Below the pieces are notes generated by a model. That model ran no database searches, was not told the DNA's origin, and saw only the letters and a program-made list of their open reading frames with translations. DNA of 64,000 nt from Lysobacter sp. HDW10 (GTDB taxonomy: Bacteria > Pseudomonadota > Gammaproteobacteria > Xanthomonadales > Xanthomonadaceae): contig NZ_CP049864.1 in the NCBI RefSeq assembly GCF_011300685.1, positions 736,885 through 800,884 of the forward strand. The letters are read 5' to 3'. Positions 22,383 to 36,969 of the stretch are shown in pieces (position 1 is the first letter of the stretch; every line of letters begins with the position of its first letter). The position numbers and the translations under genes are program-made.

Positions 22383-22826
22383 ATGGCATTTTCAACGGGT
22401 AACAGCTCTAGTGGCCCAATGGCAGACATCAACGTGACGCCCCTCGTGGACGTGATGTTGGTGCTCCTGATCATCTTCATGATCACCACGCCGCTGATGA
22501 ACCACAAAACCAAAGTGGAACTGCCGCGCGCATTTCTGGTCACGGATCTTTCGAAGCCGAAAGAAGCTGTGATCACTGCGCCCATCACGATTTCCGTGAA
22601 GGCAAACGGTCAGTTGTTCATGGATGACGCGCTGATTACCCAGGGTGATTTGGAAAGCCGCCTCGCAGTGGCCGCCCAAAAAACACCGCAGCCGCCACTG
22701 AATATTCGTGGCGACCGCACCACCCCGATGAAGATCGTTGCGGACATCACGAAGATGGCGCAAACCGCAGGCATGTTGGACATCGGTTATGTCACCGTTC
22801 GTCCGAAGCCGGGCGAGCAAGAATAA
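22383..22826 (+). CDS. exbD: ExbD/TolR family protein, ExbD1
   Basis: 147 residues. One N-terminal membrane helix with the proton-carrying Asp in [14 protein letters not shown] (about residues 20-33), then a periplasmic domain. Its first 35 residues are nearly identical to those of the next gene, so the two arose by tandem duplication. Ribosome-binding site aagga precedes the ATG. Confidence 0.94.
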   Translation: MAFSTGNSSSGPMADINVTPLVDVMLVLLIIFMITTPLMNHKTKVELPRAFLVTDLSKPKEAVITAPITISVKANGQLFMDDALITQGDLESRLAVAAQKTPQPPLNIRGDRTTPMKIVADITKMAQTAGMLDIGYVTVRPKPGEQE

Positions 22827-22838
22827 GGAGCGACTGAT

Positions 22839-23252
22839 ATGGCATTTTCCTCAGGCAATAGCAGTGGCCCTATGGCGGACATCAACGTGACGCCGCTCGT
22901 CGACGTCATGTTGGTTTTGCTCATCATCTTCATGGTGACCATGCCGATCCAAACTTACCCGATCAAAATCGACTTGCCACAAGCAAGCACGAACCCACCG
23001 CCGCCGAACCCGAAGGCACCGATCAAGTTGCGTATTGACGCTGCTGGTCAAGTGTTCTGGAACGACGCGATGATGGACGTGAAAACGCTTGAAGCAACGA
23101 TGAAAGACACGGTGAATCAGGATCCGGAAAACCAACCGTCCATTCAAATCGAAACTTCGAATCAAGCGCAATACGATGTCTTTGCAAAGGTCTTGGCCGC
23201 TGCAAAGAATGCCGACATGAAGAAGATCGCCTTCGTGGAAAACGGCAACTGA
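22839..23252 (+). CDS. exbD: ExbD/TolR family protein, ExbD2
   Basis: 137 residues, second ExbD copy, 12 bases after exbD1 with ribosome-binding site aaggag. It has the same helix with [14 protein letters not shown] but a different periplasmic domain. In Xanthomonas campestris a second exbD in the same position is known to have its own role in iron uptake and plant interaction; the same split of duties is plausible here. Confidence 0.94.
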
Positions 23253-29270: not shown

Positions 29271-30023
29271 ATGCGGGGTATTGTGCGCAATTTGGATGAT
29301 CAACTGGTGGCATTAGACCACACCGACGCAAAATGCCGCGTCGAGGGACGGAGAGCTTTGACAGGCCTGGCACATGCACTTTCGCATGACGTGCGCGCCG
29401 CTTTCAGGAGTACGCAGGGGTTTGCCCAAGTCGTGGCAGCGCGTGCTGCCGACACATTGCCGCAAGAGGATCTTCAATTACTGCAACGCGTTGTGGATGC
29501 GAGCCAGCGCGGCAGTGCGTTATTGGATGAAATTGTTGCGTGGCTTCGAATCACGCAATACACGCCGAAGTTTCAAACGGTCGATATCCAATTCGTGCTC
29601 GAATGGGCCGCATCGGATGTTGATCCATCGGCGTTGGATCTACACATCACGGGCAACGCTGAAACGATCGGCGACGAACATCTGCTGAAACGCCTGTTCG
29701 AAGTGATTCTGAGCAACGCAAGAAATTTCACCGCCGCAGGTACGGGGCCCGCGCATCTTCAGGTGGATGTGCGCGAAGACGACAGCGGCGTCCATATTCG
29801 CGTACAAGATGCCGGCATCGGTTTCGATCCGCAGCATGCATCACGTGTTTTCGAGCCCTTTGTGCGACTACACGCTGCAGAAGCAGGTGGCGGGCAAGGT
29901 CTGGGTCTTGCGATTGCCAAGACCATTGTCGACAAGCATGAAGGCAGCATTTCACTTACCGCAGCAGACGGCGGGGGTAGCGTAGTGACTATCTTCTTGC
30001 CGAAGGTGTCAGACAGAACATGA
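29271..30023 (+). CDS. soluble sensor histidine kinase, short input region
   Basis: 250 residues with no membrane helix and no recognisable sensor domain. The dimerisation domain has the phospho-acceptor His39 in LAHALSHDVRAAFRS; the ATPase has N-box LSNARNFTA, G1 DAGIGFDP, F-box FEPF and G2 GGQGLGLAIAK. It resembles the kinase part of bacteriophytochrome-type proteins. Its stop overlaps the next start (ATGA), coupling it to the response regulator. A GTG at 29283 is an alternative start. It probably takes its signal from a partner protein. Confidence 0.88.
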   Translation: MRGIVRNLDDQLVALDHTDAKCRVEGRRALTGLAHALSHDVRAAFRSTQGFAQVVAARAADTLPQEDLQLLQRVVDASQRGSALLDEIVAWLRITQYTPKFQTVDIQFVLEWAASDVDPSALDLHITGNAETIGDEHLLKRLFEVILSNARNFTAAGTGPAHLQVDVREDDSGVHIRVQDAGIGFDPQHASRVFEPFVRLHAAEAGGGQGLGLAIAKTIVDKHEGSISLTAADGGGSVVTIFLPKVSDRT

Positions 30024-30457
30024 GTATTCCAACCGTCCTGTTTGTTGAAGATAACGATGATGATCTCGAGCTCGCCAAGCTCGCGATGCACGCATTAGAT
30101 ACACCCGCTCACTTCGTGTTTGCACGCAACGGTTTGGAAGCATTGGATGTTTTATTTGCGCGCGGTGCGTATGCAGAGCGCAGCAATGAAAAGCTTCCGA
30201 AGCTTGTGATACTCGATTTGAACATGCCGTTGCTTGATGGTCGCGCGGTGTTGAAAGCCATTCGCGAAGATGCACGTACGTGCGCTGTTCCGGTTGTCGT
30301 GATGACGACAAGCGCAGAACCGCCTGACTTAATGTCGGTTGTGCAATTGCACGTCAACAGTTATGTGCAAAAACCGATGGATTTTGATCGCTTCCAAAAA
30401 GTGATGGCGCAGATTGTTCGCTATTGGCTGGAAGTGAATCAAGTAGCAAGTCAGTAA
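30020..30457 (+). CDS. single-domain response regulator (Rcp1/CheY-like)
   Basis: 145 residues, only a receiver domain. Phospho-acceptor Asp66 is in LVILDLNMP, acidic pocket VEDNDDD at 9-15, conserved Thr in VVVMTTSAE and Lys in YVQKPMD. There is no output domain, so it must act by protein contact, as Rcp1 does for cyanobacterial phytochrome. It is cotranscribed with the kinase and lies 219 bases before the sigma-54 promoter of the fap operon. Confidence 0.92.
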   Translation: MSIPTVLFVEDNDDDLELAKLAMHALDTPAHFVFARNGLEALDVLFARGAYAERSNEKLPKLVILDLNMPLLDGRAVLKAIREDARTCAVPVVVMTTSAEPPDLMSVVQLHVNSYVQKPMDFDRFQKVMAQIVRYWLEVNQVASQ

Positions 30458-30583: not shown

Positions 30584-30641
30584 TCGTTTCAATATCGAAA
30601 CGATTCTCTTGACGAATTCCTCACAGTCCTTCGACGAATTC
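30584..30641. promoter_or_regulatory. candidate activator sites upstream of sigma-54 promoter
   Basis: An inverted repeat TCGTTTC-N6-GAAACGA (30584-30603) and a direct repeat GACGAATTC (30611-30619 and 30633-30641, 22 bp apart, two helical turns) lie about 60-120 bp upstream of the expected start site. That is the right range for enhancer sites of a sigma-54 activator such as the one encoded at 35584-36969. Confidence 0.5.
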
Positions 30642-30675: not shown

Positions 30676-30692
30676 TTGGCACGGTCTTAGCT
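30676..30692 (+). promoter_or_regulatory. sigma-54 (-24/-12) promoter of the fap-like operon
   Basis: TTGGCACGGTCTTAGCT matches the RpoN consensus TTGGCACG-N4-TTGCW with the obligatory GG-N10-GC spacing; only the T-to-A change before GC departs. Transcription should start near 30703, 35 bases before the first gene. Confidence 0.85.
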
Positions 30693-30737
30693 CTAGTCCT
30701 CTGCACATCGGACAAACCGATGAGGAGGACCCAGACC

Positions 30738-31268
30738 ATGTACATCGACCGTTTCAATCAAACACGCCGCGTTCGCAGCTCGCGCTTTCTCTTGGCGCTG
30801 GCCGTGGTGGTGTTGTGGTGTGCAGGCTTGGCCTTGGCCGGCGATGCAAGTGCGCAAACGGCATCGCCCGCAAAAGATCCGTCCATCACGATTGCGCGTA
30901 CCGTCAATCCGCGCATTGCGTATCGCGGCATTCCAAAAGAAGACATGCCGATCGCGGCCGAAGCCACGACCTTTCCGCAGAAAGCATTCCAAACACAGAT
31001 CGATAACGTCACCACCGTGGGCGATGAAGCCCTGGGCATGACACAAGCGGGCGGCGAAGGCGTGCAATCGGTACTCGCAAGCACGCTGGTATCGCCAAAC
31101 TCAGCGCTATCGCAATCACTTGGCACACAAGGTACCGGCGGTGGCGCGATTCCGCGCGGTCTCGGTGCAACGATTGGCGGTTCCGTCGGCAGTGCAACGT
31201 CCAATATTGGTGCGACCGTCACCGGTGCATTGAATGGCGCGCTCGGTCGCGTGGGCGGTGCACCGTGA
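30738..31268 (+). CDS. secreted protein, first gene of fap-like operon (FapA position)
   Basis: 176 residues. The ATG at 30738 has a strong GAGGAGG site. A long signal peptide (basic head, helix about 18-36, cleavage near DASAQ) exports it. The mature part has no known domain; its C-terminal half is Gly/Ser/Thr-rich and low in charge (GTGGGAIPRGLGATIGGSVGS region). In the Pseudomonas operon this position holds FapA, a periplasmic chaperone, but I see no convincing sequence similarity and only infer the equivalence from order. Its stop overlaps the GTG start of the next gene. Confidence 0.6.
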   Translation: MYIDRFNQTRRVRSSRFLLALAVVVLWCAGLALAGDASAQTASPAKDPSITIARTVNPRIAYRGIPKEDMPIAAEATTFPQKAFQTQIDNVTTVGDEALGMTQAGGEGVQSVLASTLVSPNSALSQSLGTQGTGGGAIPRGLGATIGGSVGSATSNIGATVTGALNGALGRVGGAP

Positions 31269-31861
31269 ACTTACGCCTCTCACACGCGCTACTTCTTGTT
31301 CTGGGATTCGGCACAAGTGCTTCGGTCTTCGCACAACAAGCCGATCGCAGCATCATCCAAGCGGAAGCGGCCAGCCACGGCAACGGACGTTTGGCGGTGA
31401 ATCAAACGGCGGGCGTGGGCAACGCACAAGTGAATTTGATGGCTGTCGCGAAAGGCAAAGTCGCAGACGGCTCGACGACGGCGACGCAGTTGGCCCTGAA
31501 CCCGGATACCGCGCGCACGGCAGAAAGCGTGATCGAAGCCGGCGCATTCAAAGGCTTTCAAGGCGCACTCGCGCTGAATCAATCGTCAGGGGCAAACACC
31601 CTGCAAGCCAATCTTCTTGTCATCGAAACCCGCGAGGCTGTGACCGCGACCGATGACCGTGTGCTGGCGCAAATCGTGCCCGGCACACCACCTACTGAGG
31701 GGGCTGGGAGTGCACCGGAGGTTTCGCGGGAAGCGCGCATTGATGCGTCGGCTTTTCGCGGCGCCTCCGGTGTGCTCCAGGTCAATCAGAGCGCGGGGGT
31801 GGGCAACGCTGCCACCAACGCAGTTGTAGTCAGGCTGCCGGCAACCGCCGGTGGAATTTAA
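31265..31861 (+). CDS. fapB: FapB-like secreted repeat protein (amyloid nucleator candidate)
   Basis: 198 residues, GTG start overlapping the upstream stop. Signal peptide to about residue 24 (SVFAQ). Three imperfect repeats at about 39-62, 98-122 and 168-190 share the pattern G-x-L-x-V-N-Q-(T/S)-A-G-V-G-N-A-x-x-N, in linkers rich in Ala, Thr and Gln. Such Asn/Gln/Gly-spaced repeats are the amyloid core type of Fap proteins. No Cys is present in the mature part, unlike the next protein. Likely a minor or nucleating fibre subunit. Confidence 0.68.
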   Translation: MNLRLSHALLLVLGFGTSASVFAQQADRSIIQAEAASHGNGRLAVNQTAGVGNAQVNLMAVAKGKVADGSTTATQLALNPDTARTAESVIEAGAFKGFQGALALNQSSGANTLQANLLVIETREAVTATDDRVLAQIVPGTPPTEGAGSAPEVSREARIDASAFRGASGVLQVNQSAGVGNAATNAVVVRLPATAGGI

Positions 31862-31898
31862 CAAGCAAGCATCTTTTTCCTATCTAAGGAGTATCACC

Positions 31899-32681
31899 AT
31901 GAAACTGCAAATCACTGCACTGGCCCTCGCTCTCGTCGCTGTTCCGGCGTTTGCAAGCCCGCAAGGCGACGACGCCAAAATCAACAACGACACCCATGTG
32001 TCCAACGACATCCATGTCCGTGGCGGCGCACGTGTGACCGGCCATATCCGCATCAACTCGGAATCGTCATCGGTCATCGATCAAGACCAAGCCACCACGT
32101 TCAACGCCATGCAAGGTGATGGCGATGCCACCGCTTCGATCAGCAATCGCGTGGCACGTGACGCACAAGGCAACATCGGCTTGAACGTTGCAGCGGGCGT
32201 CGGCAATGCGCAAACCAACGATGTGGCCTTGTCGGCCGTCGATGGTCGTCGCGTGTTTGCTTCGGCGATGTCGTTCAACAACCAAGGCACGTTCGAAAAC
32301 TACGGCACCGGTGGCACCCGTCGTGATGTCGACTATCGCGCCACGGTTGACGGCAATGTTTTGGCCAACGCAAAAGGCAACATTGGCGTGAACGTTGCAG
32401 CCGGCGTCGGCAATGCACAAAGCAACAGCTTGGCCGCTTCGGTGAACACCTCTGGCACGATCGCCAAGGCCACCGCAGACAGCCAACAACTGACCCTGCT
32501 CAACATGCTTGAAGCCGATTGCGGCGACCTCGACAGCACAGCATCGCTGGCTGGCGGTGCATTGCAAGGTGCACAAGGCAACATCGGCGTGAACATTGCG
32601 GCCGGTGTCGGTAACGCCCAACACAACGGCCTCTCGATTGCCGTTGCCCAAGGCGGCGCCTGCTCGAGCTGCGGTCCGTAA
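31899..32681 (+). CDS. fapC: FapC-like functional amyloid subunit
   Basis: 260 residues. The ATG at 31899 follows aaggag. Signal peptide cleaved near residue 19-20 (PAFAS). Three near-identical repeats start at residues 91, 160 and 227, each with GNIG(L/V)N(V/I)AAGVGNAQ, spaced 69 and 67 residues apart by variable linkers. The protein ends CSSCGP: Cys255 and Cys258 form a C-terminal CxxC, a feature described for Pseudomonas FapC. Repeat wording, three-repeat architecture and CxxC together make this the probable main fibre protein. An extra Cys208 lies in linker 2. Confidence 0.78.
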   Translation: MKLQITALALALVAVPAFASPQGDDAKINNDTHVSNDIHVRGGARVTGHIRINSESSSVIDQDQATTFNAMQGDGDATASISNRVARDAQGNIGLNVAAGVGNAQTNDVALSAVDGRRVFASAMSFNNQGTFENYGTGGTRRDVDYRATVDGNVLANAKGNIGVNVAAGVGNAQSNSLAASVNTSGTIAKATADSQQLTLLNMLEADCGDLDSTASLAGGALQGAQGNIGVNIAAGVGNAQHNGLSIAVAQGGACSSCGP

Positions 32682-32710
32682 TCCAAAACGGAAGACGTAA
32701 AGTCCCCCCG

Positions 32711-32749
32711 GCGCAGCCCGGTCCGATGTACGCATCGGCCGGGCGGCGC
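32711..32749 (+). promoter_or_regulatory. strong hairpin between fapC and fapD
   Basis: An approximately 16-bp stem (32711-32728 with 32733-32749, TACG loop) is interrupted only by one A/C mismatch and one bulged T. No T-run follows, so it is not a simple terminator. It more likely protects the 3' end of fapABC mRNA and lowers expression of the downstream secretion genes. Confidence 0.72.
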
Positions 32750-32770
32750 TCTTCAAAAGCGAAGCTCGTC

Positions 32771-33484
32771 ATGTTCAGCCGTGCACTTTCCCTACTGTGT
32801 TTCACCGCGATGCTTGCACCAACTGCCAACGCGCAGGACGTGCCGAGCGTCATCGTGCGTCTCAACACGCTGCCAGGTGATGCGACGGTATCGAAGCCGA
32901 TTAAAACCTTGCGCGATTTGAAGTTTCGGGACGTGGTGCATCAAGGCTACGACTACAGCTGCGGCAGTGCTGCACTGGCAACCCTCTTGCGCTACGGCTA
33001 CGGCAAGCAAGTCAATGAAACGCAAATGATTCAGGACATGGTGTCCCACGCCGCAAATCCAGCTGAAGTGACACGCAGTGGATTTTCGATGTTGGACATG
33101 AAGCGCTACAGCGAACGAAACGGTATGCGCGCACATGGCTTCAAGGTGGACGTCGAAGCCTTGTATCGCCTTCAAATTCCCGTCATTACGTTGCTAGACA
33201 CCCGCGGCTACAAGCATTTCGTAGTGGTCAAGGGTGCAAACGCCGGACGCATCATGGTGGCAGATCCAGCGCTTGGCCATCGAGTCATCTATCAGGACGA
33301 GTTCTTGAAGAACTGGAATGGCGTCGTGCTTGCGGTCATGACCGATCGAGACTTCAACGCCAACAGCTTTCTGATGCAAGACAAACATTCAAACGCATTG
33401 TTGCGCAGGAACGACGCACTGTCGTGGTCTTCAGCGCCCGTGCCCTTGGTCGAACTCGGCCTAATCCGTGCCGACTTGATGTAA
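32771..33484 (+). CDS. fapD: FapD-like C39 peptidase
   Basis: 237 residues. Signal peptide to about residue 21 (TANA). The C39 papain-like core shows Gln58 in VVHQGYDYSCGSAA with Cys64, His150 in YKHFVVVKG and Asp166 in VADPALGH. Unlike bacteriocin-processing C39 domains it is not fused to an ABC transporter and is exported. FapD in Pseudomonas is such a periplasmic C39 protease needed for fibre export. Start at 32771 is preferred over 32726, because that ATG lies inside the hairpin. Ribosome-binding site is weak. Confidence 0.82.
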   Translation: MFSRALSLLCFTAMLAPTANAQDVPSVIVRLNTLPGDATVSKPIKTLRDLKFRDVVHQGYDYSCGSAALATLLRYGYGKQVNETQMIQDMVSHAANPAEVTRSGFSMLDMKRYSERNGMRAHGFKVDVEALYRLQIPVITLLDTRGYKHFVVVKGANAGRIMVADPALGHRVIYQDEFLKNWNGVVLAVMTDRDFNANSFLMQDKHSNALLRRNDALSWSSAPVPLVELGLIRADLM

Positions 33485-33502
33485 GCGCACGAGGAGAACG
33501 AA

Positions 33503-34270
33503 ATGAAAAGCTACAAAGGCAATTCAATCAACCGAACCATCGCATTGGCCATGCTCGTCTTCGTGCTGGCGACTTTGAAAGCGCACGCCGGCGAAGTCCC
33601 TGTGTTGAAAGTACAACGCGTGAGTGATGCGGACTTGGCTTTGATCCAAGGCAAGTACTTCGGTGCCAATTTGCTTGTAGGTGTGCGCGTAGACCTGGTG
33701 TCGAACTGGCGCGCGCCTGAAGGCGGCATGATGCAAGGCATCGCTTCTGTACAAATGCAGCGCTCCGACACCGGTACGATGCAATTCTCGATACACACCT
33801 CGGCCGCAGCTTCGGGTGCGAGCGACGGAAGCACGCCAACGGCAGCAGCGAATCGCATCGCATCGGGCGCAGAGTCCATGTCGGCAAGCGGCCTCACACA
33901 GGTCACGCAGCTTGCGGGTGATCACAATGCAGCAGTAAACCTCGCGGAAATCAACTTCGTACCCACGCTCGGCAGCGTGAGCGGTTTCAACGGCAACCAC
34001 TATGCTTCAGCGGCACAAGGCGGCTATAGCACTGAAGTGCGCTTTGCATCGAATGGGATTTCGATGGCATTGCAAGGTCCCAATGGCAGTGCGATGCAAC
34101 GTATCGGCGAAAACGATGGCGTGATGCAAGCCGCACGTGTGGCGGGCGACAACCAAGCTGCAAGCAACACACTTACTTTGCAAATTCAAACTTCGAGCGT
34201 GTCTGAAGACCTACAACGTCAGTGGGGTGTTCAAAACGCATTGTCCGGCCTTCGCGGTCTTCCACGCTAA
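33503..34270 (+). CDS. fapE: FapE-like secreted protein
   Basis: 255 residues with an N-terminal signal (hydrophobic stretch about 11-24, cleavage near AHAG). Mature protein begins with a conserved-looking VSDADLALIQGKYFG, then a Ser/Ala-rich segment and two Asn/Gln-rich stretches with QLAGDHNAAVN and VAGDNQAASN, which echo the repeat core of the two amyloid-like proteins. In Pseudomonas FapE is a minor fibre component with related motifs. Good ribosome-binding site gaggag. 18 bases after fapD, 21 before fapF. Confidence 0.65.
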   Translation: MKSYKGNSINRTIALAMLVFVLATLKAHAGEVPVLKVQRVSDADLALIQGKYFGANLLVGVRVDLVSNWRAPEGGMMQGIASVQMQRSDTGTMQFSIHTSAAASGASDGSTPTAAANRIASGAESMSASGLTQVTQLAGDHNAAVNLAEINFVPTLGSVSGFNGNHYASAAQGGYSTEVRFASNGISMALQGPNGSAMQRIGENDGVMQAARVAGDNQAASNTLTLQIQTSSVSEDLQRQWGVQNALSGLRGLPR

Positions 34271-34291
34271 TTGTCCCGGGGGGGATATCTT

Positions 34292-35580
34292 ATGAACACA
34301 TTCCGTAAAGCGCCGCTGGCGCTCAGCATTGCCCTCTGCCTGTTTCCATTTGGCGTGATGGGCCAAGAAAAGCCGCAAGATGTGAACGCGCAAATTCGTG
34401 CCTTGAATGCACGTCTGGAAGCGCAAGAACAAACCATCGGCGAACTCAAGTCGCAAGTCGAAGCGATGCAACTCGATCACATCCGCGGTCGTGGCATCGA
34501 ATCGGCCTACGCCGTGCAGAGCGCACCGCAACCCGTGCCGCAAGATGGCAGCGCACAAGCCAAGGCGCAAACGCAGCAGACATCTCCGCCTGCGGGCCAA
34601 ACCATCGGCGAGGAACAACAACGTGCGTCGAAAGACGAACGCGAGAAGGATCGTGCGCTCACGGTGCGTGAACATGCACCGCTGTTCGAACGTCGATTCT
34701 CTCTCGACGTCGGCACCAACTACAGTTATTACGACCGCCGTCAACTCGCGCTCAGTGGCTTCTTGGCACTGGATGCGATCTTCCTTGGCTCGATCAATTT
34801 GGATCAGGTCAAAGCGAACACCTTCACGATTGATGCCACCGGTCGCTTCGGTCTCACACCGAGACTGAGCCTGGAAGCCAATGTGCCGTATGTCATTCGC
34901 AATACGCGTTTCATCTCTGGCGGTGCCGCAAGCTCAGCGAATATTCGGTGACATCGAAAGGCATCGGTGACGCAAGTGTTGCGGCGTACTACCAGTTCGT
35001 CAAGGAATCACAACGTTGGCCCGATATTGTCGGCAGCATTCGTGTTCGGATTCCGACAGGTGAAAGCCCGTTCGGCATCAAGCTCATTCAACCTGACCCG
35101 GCAAACAATAATCTAAGCGTCCCTGAGGCCTTGCCCACCGGCACCGGTATGTACAGCATCACCACAGGTGTTTCTGCACTACGCACGTACGACCCGGTGA
35201 TTCTGTTTGCGAACTTGGCCTATACCTACAACATCGGTCGTAAGTTCGACGACATCTCGCCGGTGCAGGGCCAAGTCATTCCGGCCAAGGTCATCATGGG
35301 CAATCCGATTCAGTTGACCGCCGGGATGGCACTCGCACTGAATGATCGTGCAGCGATCAGCTTCAGTGTGGCGACGTCGCAATCCGGTGCAACGCACACC
35401 AAAGACATGGCAGGCGTGAAAGCGCGCGTGGTCGGTAGCTCGGCCAATGCCACGACCTTCAATGTCGGCAGCACCTATGTCTTGCCGTCGGGTTGGACCG
35501 TGAACGGTCAGGCCGTGATTGGTTTGTCACCGGATGCGCCGAACTATGTCTTGGGCCTGCGCGCTTCACGCGCGTTCTAA
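34292..35580 (+). pseudogene. fapF: FapF-like outer-membrane amyloid channel, split by a frameshift
   Basis: Two frames together make one protein of about 429 residues. The first (34292-34951) has a signal peptide, a coiled coil (about 30-65, ALNARLEAQEQTIGELKSQ), a disordered linker and the start of a beta-barrel up to RNTRFISGGAA. The second (34948-35580) continues in the next frame with LSEYSVTSKGIGD and barrel strands to the C-terminal aromatic F of RASRAF. One base is missing at about 34925-34940. Coiled coil plus barrel is the FapF architecture. Either half alone would be non-functional. A decayed gene, a phase change or an assembly error are all possible; both halves look well preserved. 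The run GGGGGGG ahead of the ATG serves as ribosome-binding site. Confidence 0.8.
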
Positions 35581-35583
35581 CAC

Positions 35584-36969
35584 TCAGCCCAATTCGGCGG
35601 CGCCATCCACAGTGTCCGCACGCAGACCATGTTGCTTCATCAAGCGATACAAGGTGATGCGTGAGATACCGAGTTCTTTGGCGCAGTGTCCGACACGATA
35701 GAGATTGCGGCGCAGCGCGGAATTGATCACTTGCACTTCCGCCGCATCGCGTGCCGCCGCCAAGGTTTGCACGGGTCCGGCTGCGCCATCATCAATGCCC
35801 AGATCTTTAGACGTGATGTAGCGACCTTCTGCCATGACCACGGCTTGATGCACGCGATTTAGAAGCTCACGCACATTGCCCGGCCACGCATAGGCTTGAA
35901 TGGCTTTCAACGCGCAATTCGAGAAGCCCTTCATTTGCGTTTGACCGGTGCCGTTGTACAGCTTCAGCGCATGCTCTGCGAGTTGCAGAATATCGTCGCC
36001 GCGACTTCTCAATGGGGGTTGCTTGAGACGAATCACACACAGGCGATGATAGAGATCGGCGCGGAATCGTCCTGCAGCCACGGCCGCTTCCAGATCGTGG
36101 TGCGTCGCTGAAACGACGCGCACGTCGACGCGAATCGCATCGGTGCCACCCAAGCGTTCAATAAAGCCTTCTTGCAGGAAGCGCAGCAAAGACGCTTGCG
36201 AGTCCAAAGGCAGATCGCCGATTTCATCTAAGAACAAAGTGCCTTTGTTGGCCAGTTCAAAGCGGCCGAGCTTGCGTTGTTGTGCACCGGTAAATGCGCC
36301 GCGTTCGTAGCCGAACAGTTCCGACTGCATCAAATGTTGTGGAATCGCGCCGCAATTGATCGCGACAAACGGGAAGGCGCTGCGGTGCGACAAGTGGTGG
36401 ATCGCGGCCGCGGCCAATTCTTTGCCGGTCCCGGTTTCGCCTGCGATATACACCGGTGCCAAGCTCGGTGCAGCGCGACGAATCAGTTTGTACAGCGCGC
36501 GCATTTCGGGGCTGCTGCCGATCATGCCACCGAAGGCTTGTTCCTCCGGGACCGTCGGGCGTGTGCTTTCCGAATGAAGTGTGGCGACACCCAGTGCGTG
36601 GCCCAACACCGATTCAATGGTCGAATCAGGGCAGGGCACAGTGATGAAGTCGAAACACACATCGCGAATCAAATGTCGGATGTGCTTGGATTCGAGTTGG
36701 CCCGGGTCAATGGCGGCCACCCAGCCCATACGTTCACGCGGCAAATTTTGAATGTAGGCCGCGTAGTCGGTCTGACCTTGCGGGTCGCGCAGATCGATGA
36801 CGCCGGCTAAGGCCTTTCGATTGGATTTTGCCAAGAGTGATTCGACGGCTGTCGGCGTCGACACGAAATGGATCCGCCAGCCATGGGCCGCCATGGCGGC
36901 AAAAGCCGGAAAATCCGCGTTAAAACGGGTGGTTACAACGATGAGTTCCCTCGCCCGTGTCGCGATCAT
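35584..36969 (-). CDS. sigma-54-dependent activator (VpsR/FleQ-like), probable fap regulator
   Basis: 461 residues. The N-terminal domain (1-130) is an atypical receiver-like module of the VpsR kind. The AAA+ domain has Walker A GETGTGKE (177-184), the sigma-54 contact loop GAFTGA (224-229) and Walker B GTLFLDEIGD (243-252). A Fis-type helix-turn-helix (KELGISRITLYRLMKQHGL) ends the protein. It is convergent with fapF, only three bases between stops, and the only sigma-54 activator in the window. VpsR and FleQ bind cyclic di-GMP; binding here is only possible. Confidence 0.92.
   Translation of the reverse strand: MIATRARELIVVTTRFNADFPAFAAMAAHGWRIHFVSTPTAVESLLAKSNRKALAGVIDLRDPQGQTDYAAYIQNLPRERMGWVAAIDPGQLESKHIRHLIRDVCFDFITVPCPDSTIESVLGHALGVATLHSESTRPTVPEEQAFGGMIGSSPEMRALYKLIRRAAPSLAPVYIAGETGTGKELAAAAIHHLSHRSAFPFVAINCGAIPQHLMQSELFGYERGAFTGAQQRKLGRFELANKGTLFLDEIGDLPLDSQASLLRFLQEGFIERLGGTDAIRVDVRVVSATHHDLEAAVAAGRFRADLYHRLCVIRLKQPPLRSRGDDILQLAEHALKLYNGTGQTQMKGFSNCALKAIQAYAWPGNVRELLNRVHQAVVMAEGRYITSKDLGIDDGAAGPVQTLAAARDAAEVQVINSALRRNLYRVGHCAKELGISRITLYRLMKQHGLRADTVDGAAELG

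Follow-up and report, generated by a model that had tools for sequence, protein, structure and literature searches.

A functional-amyloid operon of the Fap type, fapABCDEF, is found in a 64,000-nucleotide (nt) stretch of the single-contig, 2.18 Mb genome of Lysobacter sp. HDW10 (NZ_CP049864.1, positions 736,885 to 800,884 of the forward strand; this whole stretch is referred to below as the window). The best explanation of the locus, with a probability of roughly 0.8, is a fap operon that is under a convergent BrfA-type sigma-54 activator and whose export function has probably been lost in this genome through a broken fapF. The arrangement is a known one, already described in Pseudomonas and seen here in its Lysobacter-family version, and the regulatory detail is new. 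What appears to be novel is a short DNA site ahead of fapA, held at a precise spacing and shared with Paraburkholderia relatives. A preliminary description of the window had proposed a Fap operon with an adjacent sigma-54 activator of its own, and this proposal holds: the whole gene set lies on a single strand at 30738-35580 (+) in the order fapA-B-C-D-E-F, the activator lies at 35584-36969 (-), and a survey of relatives found these neighbours conserved.

30586..30601, + strand: palindrome GTTTC-N6-GAAAC, a predicted enhancer or upstream activating sequence, 91 nt upstream of the -24 element
30677..30692, + strand: -24/-12 promoter TGGCACG-N4-TAGCT ahead of fapA, at the same position in relative G003
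30738..31268, + strand: fapA, chaperone-like, with a signal peptide and a conserved RTVxPRIAYRG motif, identified through profile linkage
31265..31861, + strand: fapB, predicted minor fibril subunit or nucleator, GTG start (NF058557, expectation value (E) 1e-30)
31899..32681, + strand: fapC, predicted major fibril subunit (NCBIfam FapC, E 5.3e-24)
32771..33484, + strand: fapD, C39 peptidase (NCBIfam FapD, E 1.6e-57)
33503..34270, + strand: fapE (NF058559, E 9.8e-17)
34292..34951, + strand: fapF 5' piece with signal peptide, coiled coil and first part of the barrel (NCBIfam FapF, E 4.9e-33)
34948..35580, + strand: fapF 3' piece with the remaining barrel, in a different frame and lacking a signal peptide (NCBIfam FapF, E 2.5e-61)
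35584..36969, - strand: BrfA-type sigma-54 activator with VpsR domain, AAA+ domain with GAFTGA loop and Fis-type helix-turn-helix (HTH), convergent, after fapF

Loci Compared

Four groups of loci were compared. The Xanthomonadaceae group (n = 52) consists of the window plus 51 loci. A FapF search supplied 11 of these, including G055, which belongs to a different family within the order, and 40 were chosen from a FapD list with genus spread in mind; fapB/fapC are present in 42 of the 52. The Burkholderiaceae group comprises 63 loci from the best 80 of 295 relatives, and the other samples are 14 further gammaproteobacterial and 12 Pseudomonadaceae loci. The last family is taken as Pseudomonadaceae because its starting genome alone, among 369, has an OprF match. 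Further searches toward Pseudomonadaceae gave no match in the 56 genomes of one genus and two already-sampled matches in the four genomes of one order. Since many loci are closely related, the counts given below are not counts of independent events.

Loci with an activator found by the VpsR-type profile are referred to as class II, and the C-terminal part of their FapF is 61-85% identical to that of the window in the rows compared, while class-I FapF is 33-39% identical. L019 has the activator yet a class-I FapF. L075 was placed in class II because a longer record of the same genome, L107, has the activator, and L059 and L069, whose profile matches are weak (25 and 18 bits), stay in class I. 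Nine loci of the family sample (L024-L027, L093-L097) have a FapD-like and a FapF-like gene with no FapB/FapC match and perhaps represent a Fil-type system.

Genes of the fap Operon

The order fapABCDEF, as first proposed, is supported by NCBIfam models that name FapB to FapF and by a profile for FapA; the searches with FapC, FapD and FapF profiles that the preliminary description had called for all gave matches, below the models' cut-offs. Taken together, the family matches and the repeat cores of FapC are far beyond chance. Ribosome-binding sites and signal peptides point to probable ATG starts at 30738 (FapA), 31899 (FapC), 32771 (FapD) and 34292 (FapF). The C39 motifs of FapD are all legible in the protein, and its catalytic residues are presumably the Cys in YSCGSAA, the His in KHFVVV and the Asp in ADPALG. 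Within the genus, a profile search matched FapF in four of the other 16 genomes. The resemblance to Pseudomonas Fap extends to gene order with fapA first, the three-repeat FapC with linkers, the C39 FapD and the FapF barrel (passages of PMC3792158 and PMC6173800); unlike it, the window falls below the NCBIfam cut-offs and has a split fapF, and many family relatives carry at least two fapC-like open reading frames (ORFs). Fap systems are described, in the same passages of PMC3792158, from Beta-, Gamma- and Deltaproteobacteria including Xanthomonadales, with fapA often lost.

The first gene had been noted as showing no clear FapA similarity. This is right for the protein itself, which has no match of note in Pfam or NCBIfam, and fails at the level of a profile built from its Xanthomonadaceae homologues, which matches the first gene of all 12 Pseudomonadaceae loci (E 5.9e-11 to 7e-4). 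The gene is identified as FapA because that profile matches the Pseudomonadaceae first genes, which NCBIfam names FapA: both such proteins tested were above the cut-off. Among four other relatives, the NCBIfam model matched L070 (3.7e-9) and L163 (1.8e-7), matched L078 only at E 0.08 and did not match L022. The first-gene profile further matches 41/52 Xanthomonadaceae, 60/63 Burkholderiaceae and 4/14 other gammaproteobacterial loci, and the 11 Xanthomonadaceae loci without a homologue are the nine Fil-like ones and two on cut contigs. The predicted FapA structure is of little use (predicted local distance difference test, pLDDT, 62.3; predicted template modelling score, pTM, 0.22). In one relative, fapA is spread over two ORFs (L023:12243-12763).

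Three GNIGxN-xAAGVGNAQ repeat cores separated by linkers can be read directly in FapC (32169-32219, 32376-32426 and 32577-32627), as can a C-terminal CxxC, CSSC, at 32661-32672; both had been recognized from the start. The repeats had also been thought unexpectedly regular, an impression that the alignment of 21 FapC proteins (the window's and 20 relatives') corrects: such regularity is ordinary in the lineage because the repeats are conserved across the relatives. A CxxC stands near the C-terminus in all 20 aligned relatives, with the window's pair offset by three residues from theirs. Structure prediction had been suggested as a check on the repeat protein. By phmmer, FapC matches the solved FapC fibril sequences 9u4u and 9nqd at 6e-15, and its AlphaFold model is mostly beta; the confidence of the model is low (pLDDT 54.7, pTM 0.51) and it is therefore no more than compatible with an amyloid. 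Class-II relatives have two to four consecutive fapC-like ORFs (L023, L060, L061, L075, L076, L078-L080, L082, L084-L088, L090, L102-L110), and the window has a single one.

The BrfA-Type Activator

The gene convergent to fapF encodes a VpsR domain (Pfam E 1.1e-20) followed by matched sigma-54 AAA+ and Fis HTH domains, with the GAFTGA loop read by eye. The same architecture is seen in Pseudomonadaceae at the BrfA position, where the two proteins scanned both have the VpsR domain. A profile of the activator's N-terminal family matches solved VpsR at 3.6e-16. VpsR is known to control polysaccharide genes. In Vibrio cholerae VpsR (PDB 7v2b, 7y19), as here, an N-terminal VpsR domain precedes the AAA+ domain; unlike the window's activator, it has no link to Fap.

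Within 2 kb of fapF, a convergent sigma-54 activator is present at 39 of 42 Xanthomonadaceae fap loci (farther away in two, none in one) and 11 of 12 Pseudomonadaceae loci (none in one). Among 60 Burkholderiaceae loci, 51 have an activator upstream (41 of these were scored with a downstream one too), four have a convergent one downstream only and five have none, and among other gammaproteobacteria 12 of 13 loci have a sigma-54 activator beside fap. Burkholderiaceae operons (L118-L181) often lie between two different VpsR-type activators, one on each side. The VpsR-type profile misses the activator in 17 of the 42 Xanthomonadaceae loci, and its N-terminal part must therefore differ or have diverged in these. 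In a midpoint-rooted tree of 93 activators, including 24 Burkholderiaceae sequences drawn at random, the window's protein pairs with that of G003 inside a group with Burkholderiaceae fap activators (support 99/99). The genome itself has one rpoN match and six activator-domain matches, three of them strong. The LFRS motif holds the cyclic di-GMP (c-di-GMP) binding residues of FleQ. It is absent both from the window's activator and from the 10 Pseudomonadaceae rows listed, and is thus uninformative.

A dedicated activator had been regarded as foreign to the classical Fap setting, and the fap operon is said in passages of PMC6173800 to encode no regulatory proteins. The counts above and published work overturn that view: an activator adjoining fap is the normal Fap neighbourhood and no departure from it. 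In Pseudomonas fluorescens PF07, Guo et al. (2022) describe an RpoN -24/-12 promoter at fapA, mapped by rapid amplification of cDNA ends, and report that fap transcription requires brfA, which lies next to fapA-F on the downstream side in reverse orientation (passages of PMC9207406); BrfA of this strain is reported to sense c-di-GMP (in part of PMC13101488). Passages elsewhere report lower fap expression in an rpoN mutant (PMC8202526) and control of P. ogarae matrix genes by AmrZ/FleQ and c-di-GMP (PMC10850567). The window shares with PF07 the reversed activator after fapF and the -24/-12 promoter at fapA (PMC9207406, PMC13101488), and it shares the VpsR domain with the two Pseudomonadaceae proteins scanned at that position. 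It differs from the Pseudomonadaceae circuit in its palindrome at 91 nt, common with Burkholderiaceae, and in the end of the HTH, SR[VI]TLYRL as against SRPT[FL]YR in the Pseudomonadaceae rows read. The BrfA/RpoN circuit of one Pseudomonas is thereby suggested to be the usual Fap neighbourhood in the sampled beta- and gammaproteobacterial groups.

Promoter and Palindrome Upstream of fapA

Sigma-54 promoters have a consensus spacing between their -24 and -12 elements, and the site at 30677-30692 has this spacing. Candidate sites were scored out of 16 within 250 nt, anchored on the FapA domain, with expectations from first-order resampling; the GG/GC rule of such promoters is given in passages of PMC9207406. 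A score of at least 14 was reached at 35 of 40 Xanthomonadaceae fapA loci (0.71 expected; the other five scored 12-13), 7 of 12 Pseudomonadaceae loci (0.18 expected; the remainder 13) and 7 of 59 Burkholderiaceae loci (0.53 expected). The promoter occurs both with and without a VpsR-profile activator. Over 1100 nt upstream, a site of at least 13 is present in 59 of 60 Burkholderiaceae loci, yet 16.3 would be expected by chance over that length.

The palindrome, whose complete inverted repeat covers 30584-30603, matches its pattern once only in the window; a second copy, common in relatives, was not found by pattern upstream here. The inverted repeat also has a terminator-like score on both strands. 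In Xanthomonadaceae, 18 of the 21 class-II regions ahead of fapA contain the pattern GTT[GT]C-N6-G[AC]AAC (chance per region 0.25%), versus 1 of 19 in class I. Thirteen of the class-II regions carry it 90 or 91 nt ahead of the promoter element, and 14 carry a copy at -203 to -238. When the palindrome pattern was relaxed slightly and promoter scores from 13 upward were accepted, 53 of 60 Burkholderiaceae loci had the pair (0.055 expected by resampling). The spacing is 90-92 nt in 50 of the 60 (44 at 91, five at 90, one at 92), for which resampling gave none, and 101 nt in three. Pairs in Pseudomonadaceae (2/12) have other spacings, and the palindrome is absent from all four other gammaproteobacterial loci.

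A genome-wide target pattern, the palindrome followed after 60-90 nt by TGGCAC-N7-GC, was matched once in the genome of the window, at fapA, with zero control matches. In a set of 35 further family genomes, made up of 23 from class II and 12 from class I, 17 contain the pattern, giving 18 matches versus three in the control: 12 at fapA of sampled loci, four on other contigs of three genomes with a cut fap contig, where they are putative fapA sites, and two elsewhere. None was found in the 12 class-I genomes or in six of the class-II genomes. No literature description of the palindrome, or of such a circuit in Lysobacter or Burkholderiaceae, was found, the palindrome's letters themselves not having been searched. 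The chances are about even that these sites form a one-target switch, in which a VpsR-type sigma-54 activator reads the undescribed palindrome GTTTCA-N4-TGAAAC, locked 90-92 nt from the fapA promoter in Xanthomonadaceae and Burkholderiaceae and, in the former, frequently accompanied by another copy 203-238 nt upstream, and that in this genome the switch persists intact, with selection acting on it, and the export pore under its control is broken.

In the proposed mechanism, one sigma-54 promoter would transcribe the whole operon. The most likely binding site of the activator is the palindrome 91 nt upstream, from which it would loop to the sigma-54 RNA polymerase to open the promoter, probably at high c-di-GMP. 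FapA would then chaperone FapB and FapC, FapD would process or gate them, and a FapF trimer would export the subunits, which are expected to polymerise outside into amyloid fibres of the biofilm; the export step probably fails in this genome. The fap circuit now has an exact predicted binding site that is open to test.

The Split fapF and Competing Explanations

The preliminary description had read a FapF-like barrel as one gene and overlooked a break: the N- and C-terminal parts of fapF occupy two ORFs in different frames, and an intact FapF export pore is not encoded. The frame changes near 34,930-34,950, a place at which G003 has about a dozen bases more than the window. Both parts lie in one ORF in 51 of the 52 family-sample loci, a number that includes the nine Fil-like loci, and the window is the sole exception. 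In the comparison with G003, 58 of 74 ORFs were matched, with a two-frame flag on six: three are read as lying opposite true genes, two have a leader in the other frame, and fapF appears to be the only true gene broken internally. The ratio of nonsynonymous to synonymous substitution rates (dN/dS) against G003 is 0.073 and 0.057 for the two fapF parts and 0.038-0.070 for four other neighbouring genes. A profile search of the genome found no FapF match besides the split pair. With the barrel of its fapF interrupted and no further FapF found, this genome has probably lost Fap fibre export, and its operon most likely represents a copy disabled not long ago. A correct gene order can mask a non-functional operon, and the host should not be assumed to be a Fap producer before fapF is checked.

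Since both halves are still at low dN/dS, the break either arose very recently or reflects an assembly error. An error of that kind, with an intact, working operon in an otherwise good genome, is rather unlikely. The low dN/dS of both halves, their 80-85% identity to G003 and the openness of the remaining operon genes agree with it; against it, fapF alone among the six flagged ORFs of 58 was judged to be a true gene with an internal break, and a length difference of about a dozen bases is unlike a single-base run error. Assembly of FapF from two separate pieces, or its production by a programmed frameshift, is very improbable: the first piece's stop does overlap the GTG start of the second (34948-34951), but the latter lacks a signal peptide, no slippery heptamer was seen by eye, and none of the 51 other family loci has such a split. 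Equally improbable is that the activator serves another gene and stands here by chance. Its convergent position outside the operon would allow this, whereas a sigma-54 activator lies beside fap in all four sampled groups, the promoter-palindrome pair is single in the genome and located at fapA, and BrfA provides a precedent in P. fluorescens. A Fil-type pilus system can practically be dismissed, since the FilB match to FapD (122 bits) and the FilC matches to the FapF pieces (18 and 46 bits) are outscored by the Fap models on the same proteins (194, and 114 and 208 bits), FapB, FapC and FapE models match as well, and the nine Fil-like loci showed no FapB/FapC in the scan.

Several results weigh against a BrfA-controlled Fap operon with lost export. 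None of the window's Fap proteins reaches its NCBIfam cut-off (the models are equivalogs), a shortfall tempered by the FapD cut-off being reached in none of 395 family genomes (163 with a match); the FapF cut-off was reached in none of 60 relatives of the family and order (12 with a match) and was passed by 10 of 59 Pseudomonadaceae genomes. The palindrome is absent from 10 of the 12 Pseudomonadaceae loci, and no promoter scoring at least 14 was found at the four other gammaproteobacterial fapA loci (0.04 expected). In the activator tree, long branches and weak deep forks blur how the window's protein relates to the Pseudomonadaceae activators and to two others encoded in the same genome. Finally, both halves of fapF are under strong purifying selection.

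Neighbouring Genes

Two signalling genes upstream of fap are conserved neighbours in family relatives.

29271..30023, + strand: histidine kinase
30020..30457, + strand: single-domain response regulator

The pair is present upstream of fap in 23/42 Xanthomonadaceae, 1/60 Burkholderiaceae, 0/13 other gammaproteobacterial and 0/12 Pseudomonadaceae loci. PAS domains were found in the five relatives' kinases scanned (one weakly) and not in the window's kinase. Farther upstream, at 22383-23252, each gene of an adjacent pair is 42-44% identical to the other's G003 relative, which looks like a tandem duplication.

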